Shown piece by piece: positions 14,815-41,664 of a stretch of DNA of 64,000 nt. Made by a program: the position numbers and the translations under genes. How positions within the stretch are numbered: the stretch's first letter is position 1; each line of letters opens with the position of its first letter. The DNA lies in contig CAMVKH010000001.1 of NCBI GenBank assembly GCA_947168065.1, forward strand, positions 186,001 through 250,000, given 5' to 3'. A model generated the notes under the pieces. The model did not search any database and was not told the DNA's origin. It saw only the letters and a list, made by a program, of their open reading frames with translations. The stretch comes from an uncultured Bacteroidales bacterium. Lineage in GTDB: Bacteria; Bacteroidota; Bacteroidia; Bacteroidales; UBA932.

Positions 14815-14947
14815 CGCCCTGTCGTTTATGTCCAGCCATAAAAATATTCCGATGCAAATGCAAACAATAATTAATATTTAGCCAATAAAAAATATACTTT
14901 TAAGGCCGACAGCTCGGAGTTGCCTGTTTCCAATGCCATTTCCCGTC

Positions 14948-14978
14948 AGCGACGCAGACGAATAACTGCGATTCCGGC
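14948..14978 (+). repeat. Truncated copy of the 110-bp double-hairpin repeat
   Basis: The first stem box (AGCGACGCAGACGAAT, from 14948) runs directly into GCGATTCCG, a sequence that in complete copies occurs about 45 bases further on. It is therefore an internally deleted relic of the family found complete at 16878, 18928 and 20165. The rest of the 14815-15027 gap shows only AT-rich sequence. Confidence 0.6.
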
Positions 14979-15027
14979 CTAACGACCAACAAAAAGAAAT
15001 GGGAATGCAGCGATTGATTCTTTCAAT

Positions 15028-16782
15028 CTATTTCGCAGATAAGCAATACTGGAACCAGCGGCCATCCAATGTCAGGCCTTCCAGGCGGAGATAATAATTG
15101 TCGGGAAGATCCGGAAGGATGATATCAGCACAGCCTTGCACATCGGTGCGGATGCAAGGGTTCCAGTAGAGGGTTCCCTGGCGATCAGGATTTAGGGCGG
15201 GCGCGGCGTCGAAGGCCTTTGGCTGTTGCCAGCCGAGCGGGAGGAGGGCGATGGTGGTCTTGCGCTCGTTCTTCTTCTCTTCCAGCATCTTTTCATCGAA
15301 ATGACGGAGTTCGAGCAGCACCACGGCGGCCGCGCTATAGAGCGCAGCCTCGGTTCCGCGCAGGACATAGAGGTTCTGCACTTCACGGACCGTCATGATG
15401 GCCGCGCGCTCCCAGTCGGGCTCTTTCATGCCGTCAATATAAAGTGCGACAGGCCGGTAGCCTGCTTTATTGTTGTATTTTGCTTGTCCGTGGCTGACCG
15501 TCACACGCGAGGAGATGAAACCATCGCGTGTAGTGTACATCGTGCGTCCGGTGCGAAGGCCATTCTCCCCCCAGGTCGTGATCAGACCTGCGAAATGCGC
15601 GGAGATATAAGCCATCAGGTCCATGTCGTCCCATTTCTGCAGTTCTTCGCGCAGCTTGACCTGACGCCATTCGAAGACATTGGAGTAAGGTCCGACCAGC
15701 CGTGAGGGTTTGTAGAAGGCGGGCTTTCTTTCAGCGGTAATCCGGCTGGCAGAGATCGTATCGTCGGCCGGAAGTGGAGCAACGGTGCCGACGAAGCGCT
15801 CGCGAATGACGGTCGTGTCGCGTATTGTTTCGCGCACAGGATACGTCGGACCATAGTCGAAGGGGGCGGCAAAGGCGGCCTCGTCATTTTCCATTGCCGG
15901 ATAGAGGAACTTCGAACCTGTGACATTGACCGAAAAGAGCGTCTCTTCGGGATAGTCGAGGTCGGGTATGCGGAAAGACTGGCCAACTTCACCCTTGACC
16001 GAGCGGTCGCCGGGCACGTCGGTCGAATAGTAATAGCCTATATCCTGCGACATGATGGCCACATGATACTGCTCCGGCAGGCGGTTCCGGACACTCTTCA
16101 CACGGAAGTCAAGTTCCTGGGTGTATTCGCGGGTGCCCTCCGGAAGGTCAGCGACTGCCTCTGCCAGCACCGTCGGTGTGAATTGGAAATCGAAATCTGC
16201 GTAGCTGCCTTTCGTCACCGAGAGCGCGAAGTTGCCGATGACCGGATTGCCTTCCTTGTCAGTCAGCGTCACGGATAGATGTCCATCTTCAACCGCAGAC
16301 AGTTTGACCTTTACGTCAGCGGCCGGCGCTTCGGGATTCTCGCCAGCTTTCTTCTGCCCGGCGTAAAGTGCCGGCACCGCACCCACGCCCCGAATCAGCA
16401 GCCGCGTATGGAACAACGCTTCCGCCGGCCAGTCTTTTTGTGCCCGCGTATAGGCCCGCAATGTATACCATCCGCCTTCAAGGTCTTCCGGCAATTCCAT
16501 CTGTCCGAAAAACATCCCGCTCCGCTCCTTCAGCTTCAGGCGTCGCTCCACTCCGCCTACCCCGTCACGCAGCAGCTCGACATAGAGGAACCTGCTCGTG
16601 GGCATTTCCCCCACTACTCCTGCAGGAAAACCCGCCTCCGTCACCCAGCCCCGCAGCCAGATCGTCTCGCCCGCGGCATAGAGGGAACGGTCGCAGCTCA
16701 TCCGTACACGCTCCGTAGCCAGTGCGGAACCGGCGCTGAGCATTCCGAGGAAAACAAACAGAAAGATGCCGACCTTATTCAT
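15028..16782 (-). CDS. Exported MG2-like/TonB plug-like envelope protein
   Basis: 584 aa. The ATG at 16782 is chosen because a signal peptide follows at once (NKVGIFLFVFLGMLSAGSALA); a start 26 codons earlier would bury it. The N-terminal half has a macroglobulin MG2-like stretch (SLYAAGETIWLRGWV near 35, GWYTLRAYTRA near 105). The C-terminal half (about 385-510) resembles the TonB-receptor plug domain (VALYIDGM near 470, VREVQNLYVLRGTEAALY near 485) but has no beta-barrel. Comparable proteins are common in Bacteroidota; their role is unknown, possibly in surface protein handling. Confidence 0.6.
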   Translation of the reverse strand: MNKVGIFLFVFLGMLSAGSALATERVRMSCDRSLYAAGETIWLRGWVTEAGFPAGVVGEMPTSRFLYVELLRDGVGGVERRLKLKERSGMFFGQMELPEDLEGGWYTLRAYTRAQKDWPAEALFHTRLLIRGVGAVPALYAGQKKAGENPEAPAADVKVKLSAVEDGHLSVTLTDKEGNPVIGNFALSVTKGSYADFDFQFTPTVLAEAVADLPEGTREYTQELDFRVKSVRNRLPEQYHVAIMSQDIGYYYSTDVPGDRSVKGEVGQSFRIPDLDYPEETLFSVNVTGSKFLYPAMENDEAAFAAPFDYGPTYPVRETIRDTTVIRERFVGTVAPLPADDTISASRITAERKPAFYKPSRLVGPYSNVFEWRQVKLREELQKWDDMDLMAYISAHFAGLITTWGENGLRTGRTMYTTRDGFISSRVTVSHGQAKYNNKAGYRPVALYIDGMKEPDWERAAIMTVREVQNLYVLRGTEAALYSAAAVVLLELRHFDEKMLEEKKNERKTTIALLPLGWQQPKAFDAAPALNPDRQGTLYWNPCIRTDVQGCADIILPDLPDNYYLRLEGLTLDGRWFQYCLSAK

Positions 16783-16877
16783 TGCCTTAGCTAATAAAGA
16801 TTTGTAAAGATAATGTTTATCAGGCATTTCTCCAAACCGCCGAAACGCACGCTGCCGCATTTATCCCATTCCCCTGC

Positions 16878-16987
16878 AGCGACGCAGACGAATCATCCAT
16901 CTCGTTTGCGTCGCTGACAGAAAAGGGCGATTCCGAGCCAAAACCCGCAGGCGACACAAACCAAGCGGCGCCTTCATCTGCGTCGCT
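16878..16987 (+). repeat. 110-bp double-hairpin repeat, complete copy 1
   Basis: Four related boxes make two stem-loops. The first hairpin pairs AGCGACGCAGACGA (16878-16891) with TCGTTTGCGTCGCT (16902-16915) around a 10-base loop; the second pairs a GGCGAC-type box near 16950 with ATCTGCGTCGCT (16976-16987). The copy matches those at 18928-19036 and 20165-20274 nearly base for base and has the same orientation. It lies between the envelope protein gene and a TlpA-like gene. This double-unit layout resembles BIMEs formed from REP sequences. Confidence 0.8.
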
Positions 16988-17036
16988 CGCAAGGGAGCGG
17001 CGCAAGGCGCTTGCGGACATAATGATTCAGTTGTTA

Positions 17037-18311
17037 TTATTTAGCGTGTACTGCTTTAAGCATTTCCTCAATCTCTTCAACCGTGGGGTCGATGGCCAGG
17101 ATAATGCCGTCGCGGTCGAGCAGGAAAACCTTGGCGTGGTTACAGCGGATGCCGGGATTATCTTCGAGCTCGATCAGGTTGATCCAGGGATATCCGTCCC
17201 GCTTGAGGGCGGTACGCCACTTGGCATCATCATATTCATTGGCTACGCCCACAATCGTAAAGTCATCGCCGGCATATTTTTCATAGATAGGCTTGAGCGC
17301 TTTGCTGCGGATGCGGCAGGAACCGCACCAGGAAGCCCAGAAATCGACGACGGCCATCTTCCCCGCCACGAGCTCGGACAACTTATGAGAGACCCCGCCG
17401 GCATCCGGCAACGTGAAGTCGCGGATCTTCTCGCCAACATTATTCCCTGTAAGACTGGCTATCTCTGTGTGGTAAGGATGTCCGGGGAATCGCCCGGCAA
17501 AACAGGTATCATACAGGTCCATCCAAGGCTGGATGTCTTTTTCCTGTTGACGGGCGTATTCGATTCCTTGCCAGACCCGATAGAACGAACTCAACAGTGC
17601 GGGATGCTGTACAAGATAGTCCCGATTCAAGCTGTCTCCCCAAGCTTGGAATGCGTCCATTTCCCGCTTGGCGGCAAGACCCTCTACCGAGTAGCTCGCA
17701 TCGAGTTTCTGCATTTTATTGAACTGGCTCCACAATTCATTTGCCCTTTCCCGGGATGCCGTATCGGCCTCGGCAATCAGGGCATACACTTCCTCGTTGT
17801 AAAGATTCCGATCTTTCTGCAGCTGACTGAACTTTCGGTATATAGGGGCCGAAACGGGCTCAAGGTTCCGGCCAATCTCTTCATAAGCCATGAGATTGGC
17901 ATTTTCCGGTGAAGAAGATTGCAGAAGGATTTCTTCATACATATCTTCCGGACAGAAAACGCTGACCCCTGTCTGTGTAGGAACAAACGGCCTGACAATG
18001 GCCATCCCAGAGCCCGGAACCGTGAACATGAATTCATATACCAGCGTTGTGTCAAGAAGTACGACATCCTTGAAGCGGCCTTCCTTTACAGGGAATGTCG
18101 CCAAGGGATCTTCTTGTACCCAAGACTGGCCGGCCCGAAATAGATAGACCTCCTTGAATTCCTTGTTGTCCACCGTCCCGGAGACAGGACATTCAGCCAT
18201 ACACTCCTCACGCGTTACCGGGAGTTGGTCGGAGGCATTGTTATCGGAAGGACGGCATGCAAAAAGCATGGCGAATCCGAGTAAGCACGCTGAAACAGTT
18301 CGCGTTTTCAT
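17037..18311 (-). CDS. TlpA-family thioredoxin-like lipoprotein
   Basis: 424 aa from the ATG at 18311, which opens a lipoprotein signal (KTRTVSACLLGFAMLFAC); a start six codons upstream is possible. The N-terminal 260 residues are a DUF4369-like/helical region typical of Bacteroidota thioredoxins. The C-terminal redoxin domain (about 290-424) carries the CXXC motif WCGSC. The protein should act as a periplasmic thiol-disulfide reductase. It has no linked redox partners and is flanked by mobile repeats (copy 1 downstream, the IS30 remnant upstream). Confidence 0.85.
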   Translation of the reverse strand: MKTRTVSACLLGFAMLFACRPSDNNASDQLPVTREECMAECPVSGTVDNKEFKEVYLFRAGQSWVQEDPLATFPVKEGRFKDVVLLDTTLVYEFMFTVPGSGMAIVRPFVPTQTGVSVFCPEDMYEEILLQSSSPENANLMAYEEIGRNLEPVSAPIYRKFSQLQKDRNLYNEEVYALIAEADTASRERANELWSQFNKMQKLDASYSVEGLAAKREMDAFQAWGDSLNRDYLVQHPALLSSFYRVWQGIEYARQQEKDIQPWMDLYDTCFAGRFPGHPYHTEIASLTGNNVGEKIRDFTLPDAGGVSHKLSELVAGKMAVVDFWASWCGSCRIRSKALKPIYEKYAGDDFTIVGVANEYDDAKWRTALKRDGYPWINLIELEDNPGIRCNHAKVFLLDRDGIILAIDPTVEEIEEMLKAVHAK

Positions 18312-18350
18312 TTTACAATTCATTATCATTCGATAGCTAATATATGGTGA

Positions 18351-18872
18351 ATTCTAATTTGAAGTGCAACACACTTCAAAAGTCAAAAATAAATAATTGT
18401 TTGCAATATTCCAACGGTGTCCTGTAACCCAGTGACTTACGGGGCCTGTGGTTGAGTTTCCATTCGATCTCGGCAAGCATCTCATCCGTCAGCTCGCTGA
18501 AGTCCGTACCTTTCGGGATGTACTGGCCGTAGATGATGAACCTTCGCACGGTTCGTTTCCTCTCGTCGGTGAACTTCAGGTAGTGTCTCCTGGTCTTCAT
18601 CCTCCTTTCATATTTTTTCTGAGCCAGTTGCCATCGATACCGATGGTATCCTCTCATGTCGCAGTTCCTGCGAATCTCACGGCTCACCGTGCCTGTACTG
18701 ACTCCAATCACTTCCCCTATTTCCCTCAGGCTCATCGGTGTCTGCAGCAACGCCTCAATCGTATATCGCTGCTCCCTTGTCAAATGCTTATATCCCATCC
18801 TCTGTCGCTTTTCTGGTTATGACAGTAAAGTTATACTATCAGGCTTCAAAGCGTTGCACTTCAGAGTAGAAT
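18351..18872 (-). mobile_element. Internally deleted IS30-family element
   Basis: A 522-bp unit bounded by inverted repeats ATTCTAATTTGAAGTGCAAC (18351-18370) and the complement of 18853-18872, identical at 18 of 20 positions. It encloses a single 140-codon frame that joins the two ends of an IS30 transposase. No target duplication is obvious. A normal IS30 element is about 1-1.2 kb, so the middle has been lost. It could be mobilised only by a full-length relative. Confidence 0.75.
18376..18798 (-). pseudogene. IS30-family transposase with in-frame central deletion
   Basis: 140 aa, against roughly 320 or more for the family. Residues 1-75 are the N-terminal helix-turn-helix of IS30 transposases (GYKHLTREQRYTIEALL, then TGTVSREIRRN). 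From about residue 90 the sequence jumps to the extreme C-terminus of the integrase core (YIPKGTDFSELTDEMLAEIE, then LNHRPRKSLGYRTPLEY). The DDE catalytic region in between is missing, so it cannot transpose, yet the frame is open. A DNA-binding fragment could still occupy the inverted repeats as a repressor; that is speculation. Confidence 0.8.
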
Positions 18873-18927
18873 CCAGCTCAATATTTTCAATAATAAACGC
18901 CCTCCCTCTGCAACGAGGAAGCCTAAC

Positions 18928-19036
18928 GCGACGCAAACGTATCATCCATCTCGTTTGCGTCGCTGACAGAAAAGGGCGATTCCGAGCTGAAACCTGCGGG
19001 CGACGCAAACCAGGCGGCGCCTTCATCTGCGTCGCT
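18928..19036 (+). repeat. 109-bp double-hairpin repeat, complete copy 2 (upstream of the RAYT-like gene)
   Basis: Same four-box architecture as the copy at 16878, with the first box reading GCGACGCAAACG. It ends at 19036, 130 bp before the transposase start codon, and has the same orientation as the copy just downstream of that gene. A TAnnTTTG promoter-like box (TAACTTTG, 19078-19085) lies between the repeat and the gene. Confidence 0.8.
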
Positions 19037-19165
19037 GACAACCAAACGGCGCAATGCCGTTGCTTCTCGTTTTTTCGTAACTTTGCTTTGCATTTCGACT
19101 GTGGCGGAGATACGCGGCGGTAGAAAATGTGCGAACGGATTGTGTAACGAATAAATCGGAATGCG

Positions 19166-20125
19166 ATGCAAAAGCTCTATCACATCTCTCTGTCTTCTAC
19201 GGAAGACGAACTCCTGTTCAGAAGCGAATCCGACCTGGTTCGCGGTTTCAACTATCTGGCTGCGGCCATCCTCGAAATGGAGGCCCGGCTTCTGGCAGAC
19301 GGTATCCTGACCACACATCTTCACTGTCTGGCACTGACCGACAGTCCCAAAGAACTGATTACCCGGACACGCTATTCCCTGGCCCGCTTCTTCAATGCGA
19401 AGTACGCCCGCAAGGGAATGTGGGGCGAGCGGAATCCGTTCATACTGGAAGTCGACGGCTTTCATCATACGATTGCCGCCCTCAACTATGTCAACCGGCA
19501 GGCCCTGCACCATGGCCTTTCAGCTACGCCCTATGGCTATCGTCATTGTTCGGCAAATGCACTTTTCCGGAAACAGTTGGGGAAAGAACATGGTTTGCTG
19601 CTTCCTTCTGACCAGCGATACAGATACCTACCAAGCAGGGTTTCTCTGCCCGAACGATACCGGATGGACGATTCCGGCCTCCTTCTACGGGAAGACATTC
19701 TGGAAACCGCACACGTCGAATCCCTATACAGGACCCCGCGAAACTTCCTTTACCAGATGAACAAGATCGGTGACGAAAAGGGGCAGCAGGACCAGCGGGA
19801 AGAAAAATCTTCCAGCCCGATCATCACGCTGGAATTGATGGAAAAAGGCGTTCCTGAAAACGACATCAGTACCCTACTTCGCAACCAAAGCGGGAAACAC
19901 AATCCGAACAGGATTCTGGATCTGGAACTATGCTCGTTGATTGACACGACTTTCGTTCCGCAATTGTCAAAGAGCAAAGAGCATCTTTCCATCTACCAAA
20001 TCCCCTATGTCCGCCGTGTCGACCTATTCAATCATCTCCGGCAAAACCTCTGGCAGGACCAGAAGAAGTTCGCCACGGAAGATCAACTCAAGCGCTGCCT
20101 CGGTCTTGGCTACAAGCAGTCTTAG
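19166..20125 (+). CDS. REP-associated tyrosine transposase-like (Y1/HUH) protein
   Basis: 319 aa. The N-terminal 130 residues fit the Y1 transposase fold of IS200/RAYT proteins: the HUH metal-binding motif His51-Leu-His53 (THLHCLAL), a GERNPFI stretch near 87, and the candidate nucleophile Tyr108 in ALNYVNRQALHHGL, matching the YxxxNPxxxGL motif of RAYTs. The C-terminal half (about 140-319) has no family I recognise. No left or right IS ends are seen; instead complete 110-bp double-hairpin repeats lie 130 bp before and 40 bp after it. This is the typical setting of a RAYT with its REP elements, suggesting it nicks and spreads them. Confidence 0.75.
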   Translation: MQKLYHISLSSTEDELLFRSESDLVRGFNYLAAAILEMEARLLADGILTTHLHCLALTDSPKELITRTRYSLARFFNAKYARKGMWGERNPFILEVDGFHHTIAALNYVNRQALHHGLSATPYGYRHCSANALFRKQLGKEHGLLLPSDQRYRYLPSRVSLPERYRMDDSGLLLREDILETAHVESLYRTPRNFLYQMNKIGDEKGQQDQREEKSSSPIITLELMEKGVPENDISTLLRNQSGKHNPNRILDLELCSLIDTTFVPQLSKSKEHLSIYQIPYVRRVDLFNHLRQNLWQDQKKFATEDQLKRCLGLGYKQS

Positions 20126-20164
20126 CCAAACGTCATACACGGCATCTTCATCCCATTTTCCTTC

Positions 20165-20274
20165 AGCGACGCAGACGAATCATCCATCTCGTTTGCGTCG
20201 CTGACAGAAAAGGGCGATTCCGAGCCAAAACCCGCAGGCGACGCAAACCAAGCGGCATCCTCATCTGCGTCGCT
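20165..20274 (+). repeat. 110-bp double-hairpin repeat, complete copy 3 (downstream of the RAYT-like gene)
   Basis: Starts 40 bp after the transposase stop. First hairpin: AGCGACGCAGACGA (20165-20178) with TCGTTTGCGTCGCT (20189-20202), 10-base loop; second hairpin ends with CATCTGCGTCGCT at 20274. It differs from copy 1 at only a few positions. The remaining gap to creD is short and holds no gene. Confidence 0.8.
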
Positions 20275-20308
20275 GACGAATAACCGGGAATGCAGCATCT
20301 TGCGCTCG

Positions 20309-41556: not shown

Positions 41557-41664
41557 AGCGACGCAAATAGATCACTTGTCTCATTTGCGTCGCTGCGGCA
41601 AAAAGAACGGTTTCACTAGAAAACTGTGGTCGACGCAGACAAAGCGGCACCCCCATCTGCGTCA
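41557..41664 (+). repeat. Diverged copy of the 110-bp double-hairpin repeat
   Basis: AGCGACGCAAAT (from 41557), CATTTGCGTCGCT, GTCGACGCAGAC and CATCTGCGTCA boxes keep the order and spacing of the family at 16878/18928/20165, 21 kb away, but loop and spacer have drifted. The 532-bp gap 41333-41864 contains this, the ECF-like motif and the repeat at 41739, and no gene. Confidence 0.65.

Follow-up and report, generated by a model that had tools for sequence, protein, structure and literature searches.

A predicted RAYT-like Y1 HUH transposase flanked by double-hairpin elements of constant pitch in an uncultured Bacteroidales bacterium

REPtrons, in which a RAYT (TnpAREP) gene is accompanied by its cognate REP doublets, are the closest described systems to the locus reported here. 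The inverted orientation of REPs and the coevolution of RAYTs with REPs have been described (Nunvar 2010; PMC2817692), and in the GI REPINs of P. fluorescens the first bases of the two 16-mers are 71 bp apart, against 110 in GII (PMC3116915). According to the TnpAY1 survey (Quentin 2018; PMC6006769), each tnpAREP has its own REP family, the genes of five subclasses have REPs with the motif GT[AG]G, and the Bacteroidetes subclass 2.6 has atypical structures. Cognate recognition has been studied in vitro by Corneloup (2021; PMC8266576), and that report states that there is no evidence for tnpAREP mobility.

We analyzed a stretch of 64,000 nucleotides (the window) from an uncultured Bacteroidales bacterium (contig CAMVKH010000001.1, positions 186,001 to 250,000), in which a gene for a RAYT-like protein lies between two double-hairpin elements (Table 1). 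The reading that we favor, with a probability of about 0.6, is a REPtron-like unit in which a Y1 HUH enzyme acts on its own private double hairpin. Positions below are those of the window unless a contig is named; genomes, contigs and gene loci carry our own handles (G, C and L), the genome of the window being G000.

Table 1. Coordinates of the features described in the window.
Feature	Position	Strand	Remark
Truncated element copy, first arm joined to spacer	~14947..14987	+	read by eye
Third element copy, both hairpins, beyond the thioredoxin-like gene	16879..16986	+	
Upstream element, hairpin 1	18928..18963	+	arms GCGACGCAAACG; loop includes ATCATCCATCT
Upstream element, hairpin 2	19000..19035	+	loop includes AGGCGGCGCC
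Upstream element, right box GGCGCA	19048..19053	+	left box absent from upstream copy
Candidate -7 box, TAACTTTG	19078..19085	+	4 nt before leader; putative promoter
Putative structured mRNA leader	19090..19165	+	9-bp closing helix with one T-G pair (GCATTTCGA..TCGGAATGC); ends one base before ATG
Predicted Y1/HUH RAYT-like transposase gene, 319 aa (H51xH53, Tyr108)	19166..20125	+	ORF, alignment, model
Downstream element, left box TTCATCCCATT	20147..20157	+	right box absent from downstream copy
Downstream element, hairpin 1	20166..20201	+	
Downstream element, hairpin 2	20238..20273	+	
Diverged fourth element copy, 73% identical, 22 kb off	41558..41663	+	

The preliminary description of this DNA had placed an open reading frame here, with a His-Leu-His motif, a YxxxN setting of the tyrosine and a C-terminal extension of about 180 residues. 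The reading frame is present and the histidines are found as T-H51-L-H53, H51 and Tyr108 being invariant and H53 kept in at least 90% of 28 aligned family members. The residue at Tyr+4 had been misread: it is Q112, in the context Y108-V-N-R-Q112-A-L-H-H-G. Among 42 aligned full-length members most have YVNRQ or a close variant, and N at this position is restricted to the more distant members L101, L103 and L104, so Q may be derived or convergent. An AlphaFold2 model of the protein (mean pLDDT 90.9, pTM 0.90) predicts that the C-terminal part is real and folded, with block pLDDT values of at least 81. The order of its elements (E3-10, H21-37, E41-47, E51-58 with the HxH motif, H61-80, E92-95 and H99-110 with Tyr108) is what we take to be that of Y1 enzymes.

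In Pfam the protein finds nothing at E up to 1, nor does any NCBIfam model match it above the cut-off, and only 2 of the 28 aligned relatives reach Y1_Tnp at E up to 0.1 in Pfam. The homology to Y1_Tnp becomes apparent through subfamily B, whose profile (A3, built from five proteins) matches that of the family by hhalign with a probability of 99.5% (E 3e-23, 267 columns); both scanned members of this subfamily exceed the Pfam Y1_Tnp cut-off of 23 bits (L011, 23.4; L054, 25.8). Alignment and model together indicate a Y1/HUH family with a single predicted catalytic tyrosine. Compared directly by hhalign, E. coli RayT gives no significant match (probability 0.2% for A1 and 0.6% for A3), although the Tyr motif is in register in that alignment. 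A search by sequence for a relative of solved structure gave one match, to YhcH at E 0.34, which we do not regard as credible. The neighboring genes are, by Pfam, CreD-like, redoxin/thioredoxin-like and glutamine synthetase genes, and a remnant of an IS30-like transposase adjoins the unit at 18376-18798 on the minus strand (HTH_38 and the end of the IS30 model).

Of 395 phylum genomes, the family profile matched one, the own one, with an E value of 1e-15 or better. A relative at least 77% identical is present in 4 of 37 genus genomes, drafts of varying completeness: G000, G036, G008 and G018 (in G018 a fragment). The comparison of repeat and gene across relatives, which had been proposed earlier, showed the hairpin in all four of these and in 3 of the 33 others (Fisher one-sided 5e-4; the near-identity of G000 and G036 means that they do not count as independent). 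Gene and hairpin thus go together, with exceptions: the three genomes with orphan GCGACGC hairpins are G029 (5), G015 (5) and G011 (1). Neither such a relative nor the hairpin occurs in any of 24 genomes from other genera. In the genus-labelled searches (these 61 genomes and the 395 phylum genomes) the family was found confined to one genus; the statement rests on those searches, since a wider genome scan, which carries no genus labels, includes a Bacteroidaceae bacterium (L179, 39%). Many relatives from that scan are labelled as coming from ruminant stomachs or horse faeces, and one as Candidatus Cryptobacteroides. The lack of a Pfam or NCBIfam match and the single genome among 395 bear out the suggestion of a distinct branch with its own repeat. 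Among the open-licence PMC papers listed for RAYTs in general, for RAYTs or REPs in Bacteroidetes/Bacteroidales and for transposases of Cryptobacteroides, none describes this family in its title or the start of its abstract.

The two repeats that had been noted around the gene are in direct orientation as claimed, with 122 nt each (18928-19049 and 20166-20287), 89% identity and 1238 nt from start to start. Each consists of a 36-nt hairpin, a 36-nt spacer and a second 36-nt hairpin, the two hairpins having identical arms and differing loops (TCATCCATCT in one, GCGGC in the other). Among 28 distinct elements, termed group I and picked by their loop motifs, an outer left box close to TTTATCCCATT occurs in 15 and a right box GGCGCA in 21; as the set was chosen by the loops, their conservation is selected and the boxes alone are free evidence. 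The two copies at the gene each keep just the box that faces it, the right one upstream and the left one downstream, and the third copy (16879-17004 with its boxes) has both. In group I and in the window (18928-20287), the left box resembles loop 1 and the right box loop 2, in the same sense (TCATCC-AT and GCGGCGC), a likeness in sequence that perhaps reflects a guide-like relation. Minisatellites with units of 13, 22, 23 and 25 nt adjoin the elements of L006, L007 and L008, and some of these units are similar to the right box GCGGCGCA, from which tandem growth may have started.

The association of gene and hairpins extends across the family. We assembled 85 loci (80 kept of 159 genome-scan relatives, minus four partial ones, plus six from the own genome and three others), and in 63 of them two or more hairpins built on the same arm lie beside the gene, within 600 nt upstream and 500 nt downstream. 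Block-shuffled flanks gave such a pair in 0 of 85 cases and distant flanks of the same loci in 6 of 58; no pair was detected in 22 loci, some of which are cut by contig ends. A repeat common to both flanks was found in 32 of 44 tested loci, which are the best 46 of 75 matches in the 61 relative genomes less two whose flanks were too short. The earlier description of a Y1/HUH RAYT-like protein flanked, as in a REPtron, by palindrome doublets is supported.

The flanking repeats also bear on an alternative, that of an autonomous IS200/IS605-like transposon which moves as an insertion sequence and whose left and right ends are the upstream and downstream elements. Direct orientation in 23 of the 32 repeat-flanked loci is what such ends would give, and Q at Tyr+4 is the residue listed for TnpA of IS200 in the motif table of PMC6006769. 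Against it, the repeats are inverted in the other 9 loci, and the protein has 319 aa, whereas members of the IS200 class have a median length of 152 in the same source.

The spacing of the hairpins is nearly invariant. Equal arms follow each other at a pitch of exactly 72 nt in 44 of the 63 loci and at 70-74 nt in 59, in a search that covered 12-300 nt; the four exceptions are L151, L177, L103 and L104. Seven loci are near-duplicates: L160 and six from G036, whose genome is nearly identical to the own one. They remain in the counts of 63/85 and 44/63 and were left out of the neighbor, Mantel, leader and stem-pairing analyses; without them the pitch values are 41 and 55 of 59. L157, L158, L165, L176 and L180 contain whole arrays at this pitch. 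Sister subfamily B has a pitch of 51-52 nt (readable in 4 of 14 loci), and in subfamily C, readable in 5 of 15 loci, the values are 51, 51, 52, 71, 73 and one 82. The difference between 72 and 51 is 21 nt, or two helical turns, and these few loci may thus hint at helical phasing.

The stems vary in sequence and keep their pairing. In 34 distinct arms the stem is about 12 bp, with a zone 9-20 nt from the hairpin center that is 78-99% paired, while the positions up to 7 nt from the center form an unpaired loop (pairing at most 48%). Nearly every stem position shows several pair types, so that pairs are kept while bases change; pairing as such is partly selected by the arm search, the register of the paired zone is not. 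The farther apart two proteins are, the farther apart are their arms (43 loci; Mantel r 0.44, 0 of 2000 permutations). This correlation is no proof of recognition, because linkage of element and gene, or common descent, also predicts it. The Mantel and stem-pairing analyses took only elements preselected for a pitch of 71-73 nt and thus constitute no test of pitch. Arm sequences differ by paralogue while the geometry stays constant. A GT[AG]G foot is not enriched at the hairpins (19 of 170, 11.2%, against 11.0% at random positions).

Hairpins between genes can terminate transcription, and these could be terminators or attenuators unconnected with the protein. Their pairs are, however, rare in the distant flanks, and such a role would leave no place for the fixed pitch or for the correlation of arms with proteins, which makes this explanation very improbable.

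The own genome encodes five paralogues of the protein, 52-62% identical to it, and their stems read CGCGARAGG, GACGCTCGGTCC, GACACAGACG and GGCCACAGAATG. Own arm types are 0.31-0.60 apart in the three pairs compared, and each gene has a palindrome family private to it. The idea of a single domesticated enzyme therefore needs to be changed, since beyond the five paralogues the genome encodes no fewer than seven more distant members, long Y1 proteins or relatives of these, at G000 C1:333093, C1:311982, C1:430483, C6:48352, C4:65409, C4:111146 and C12:23409. The paralogue at C1:150486 (L018) has R in place of H53 and hairpins only downstream, and its G036 counterpart L072 keeps HLH; from its sequence, this copy is perhaps decaying.

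A scan blind to arm sequence of contigs C1 and C3 (793,914 bases, with all six genes) found 12 elements, of which 10 are two at each of five genes and none is at the sixth, C1:150486. The remaining two are the GCGACGC copy 22 kb from the gene and, at C1:535213 where that contig ends, a copy whose arms are GCGACGACA. In G036 arms of this type accompany the gene L099, and the contig may therefore break off before a corresponding gene. Weaker copies such as 16879-16986 escape the scan. It found none in 220 kb of three other genera (two tiny G050 contigs excluded), none in shuffled C1 and one in all at five other pitch ranges. With at most two mismatches, the own hairpin pattern has 9 matches in the own genome, 7 with the own arms and 2 with arms of type GACACAGA, and the reversed pattern has no match in the 61 genomes; the own assembly, which is 77% complete, holds 7 GCGACGC hairpins. 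By these counts the elements stay close to their genes and show no REP-like dispersal. An abundant REP family is ruled out by the copy numbers, and the preliminary description's picture of an ordinary RAYT spreading REPs is not supported, given both the low copy number and the missing GT[AG]G foot. An IS200/IS605-like transposon would be expected to leave near-identical copies, and the own genome has none, the best other copy being 62% identical. It also has no match to the TnpB-type family PF07282; many IS605 elements carry such a gene, and tnpA-only elements exist.

The position of the gene differs between relatives. Where two proteins are at least 80% identical, the neighbors are common in all 10 pairs with full flanks, and movement is thus not frequent; at 70-80% identity, 34 of 40 pairs have no common neighbors. 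The own gene lies between the IS30-like fragment and the CreD-like gene. In G061 (which holds L106; RUG12415), the paralogue C1_113 is in place (L122, 92.6%, both sides common with the own genome), and the counterpart of the gene (81%) is at a different locus. At the own site, G061 has the CreD end joined to the ABC-transporter side, with neither gene nor element, near a contig end. In G061 the gene and both its elements come after a stretch that is collinear with own C1 as far up as 181636, and in G008 the gene (77%) comes after one that is collinear with it as far down as 181673. These two points are only 37 nt apart in the own genome, and the site used in G061 and G008 is therefore empty there. 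At the own site, G029 has a single solo element; window 14891-20146 is missing from this genome, and about 450 nt peculiar to it lie close by. The units of G061 and G008 are rearranged on their other sides, a second solo element of G029 stands at a rearranged junction, and G061 and G029 have a further one in common at one place. Inspection of seven elements and two gene sites showed no clean target-site junction. The empty sites came from a DNA search; a search for CreD neighbors in 37 genomes was too sparse, with 7 matched and two of these other genus members.

The simplest reading of the different loci is movement of the gene, or recombination, at its elements; they could also stem from ancestral duplication and reciprocal loss. 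That the gene occurs at different loci together with its elements would suit an IS200/IS605-like transposon as well, but orthologues stay at one locus in several species, and the absence of near-identical copies, the protein size and the lack of a PF07282 match make an ordinary element of that kind less likely; overall we consider it unlikely. A second alternative holds that the enzyme has been domesticated and stays in place, or that the family is in decay, with elements that are remnants or sites of recombination or regulation, and with locus differences caused by homologous recombination, rearrangement, or duplication and reciprocal loss. The low copy number, the common neighbors at 80% identity and above, and the rearranged junctions around the elements of G061, G008 and G029 are in keeping with this, as is the solo element found at one place in both G061 and G029; the one at the own site in G029 fits recombination between direct repeats. 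Decay would, however, erase both the stem pairing and the 72-nt pitch, which recur with diverged stems, and the predicted catalytic residues are retained (H51 and Tyr108 in 28 of 28 aligned members, H53 in at least 90%). We regard this alternative as improbable too, and return to the REPtron-like unit.

The segment between the upstream element and the start codon may act as RNA. It is preceded by the octamer TAACTTTG, which fits TAnnTTTG, the consensus of the Bacteroidetes -7 box, and which is a candidate promoter element. The complementary motifs GCATTTC..GAAATGC, around the ~60 nt before the ATG, were found in 38 of 76 members, four of them doubtful. For 29 of these leaders (all but four near-duplicates, L127 and the four doubtful ones) the ends were paired directly at the best-pairing 3' offset, and every one has a closing helix of at least 7 bp. 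At position 6 the pairs are T-A (17), C-G (6) and T-G (6), at position 7 C-G (26), T-A (2) and T-G (1), and at position 8 G-C (11), T-A (8) and five other standard pairs, with 5 leaders unpaired; position 9 is paired in 7. Positions 6-8 thus vary in compensated ways, and they alone are free evidence, since picking leaders by GCATT..AATGC-like motifs selects pairs 1-5. On the MAFFT alignment, in which the 3' arm was misplaced, RNAalifold for this reason gave only 3 pairs and none of those of the closing helix. An Rfam search of the locus gave no match above the gathering score, and one far below it. The 3' arm ends at most 4 bases from the start codon in all 29 leaders, and one base from it in most, so that a role in translation control is plausible; the structure probably keeps expression low.

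The mechanism we propose is as follows. The gene product would be a Y1 HUH single-strand DNA nuclease and strand transferase, and its target the own double hairpin, most likely exposed as folded single-stranded DNA, e.g., in the template of lagging-strand synthesis. With a constant pitch of 72 nt, one protein assembly could hold both hairpins. Loops common to a paralogue group, together with the outer boxes of many copies, may provide a general grip and the context of cleavage, and the stem sequence may serve as the paralogue-specific address. Cleavage beside two elements could then excise or shift one element or the whole element-gene-element unit, which would yield relocated genes, solo elements and rearranged junctions. 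Such an enzyme would mainly maintain or move its own locus rather than flood the genome, because the copy number stays low.

These pairs of protein and stem bear on how RAYT proteins choose their palindromes and on how REP doublets move. As dozens of them (34 distinct arms) share one geometry and differ in the stem, a recognition code should be readable by comparison and by arm swaps, and the enzyme-tag pairs of a gut bacterium offer a natural test of target finding. That stems of unrelated sequence keep one pitch suggests a protein-DNA assembly of defined architecture. If the gene truly moves with its elements, the family would be a link between stationary RAYTs and IS200/IS605 transposons. 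More tentatively, we propose a genus-confined clan of HUH transposases with several parallel enzyme-hairpin pairs per genome on one invariant chassis (~12-bp stem, 14-16-nt loop, 72-nt pitch, 51 nt in sister clades), in which the stem alone carries the address and the gene, unlike known RAYTs, travels with its elements.

Among described systems, IS200/IS605 transposons share the type of catalytic core, Q at Tyr+4 and hairpins near both ends, whereas, as described in PMC6006769, they have a small TnpA, near-identical copies and single subterminal hairpins; the family does not appear to fall among IS200/IS605 transposases with standard ends. In the same survey, TnpAY1 subclass 1.2, of Cyanobacteria and Bacteroidetes, has the similar signature Y---Q--HH, but measures 148 aa and has no associated palindromes, against 319 aa and the elements seen here. 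Subclass 2.6 (Bertels group 5) also belongs to Bacteroidetes and has atypical gene-flanking structures without GT[AG]G; as described, it differs in a median of 179 aa and the motif YIH[QN]NP, against 319 aa and YVNRQALHHG (PMC6006769). The closest likeness is to RAYT/TnpAREP proteins with their REPs or REPINs (PMC2817692, PMC3116915, PMC6006769, PMC8266576). Both kinds combine a Y1 HUH protein with gene-flanking palindromes or doublets, a palindrome family private to each gene, and covariation of protein and palindrome. The 72-nt pitch resembles the 71 bp of the GI REPINs of P. fluorescens (PMC3116915), as a likeness only. Relative to RAYT/REP systems, our family lacks GT[AG]G and high copy number, has Q rather than N at Tyr+4 and a 180-residue C-terminal part in a protein of 319 aa, varies in gene location, and has several paralogue-element pairs per genome on one geometry. 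By the strict definition of a REP it is not a RAYT/REP system, because the foot motif and the copy number fail and the Tyr motif differs; by analogy, the unit appears to work most like a REPtron, as a variant of the RAYT/REP kind.
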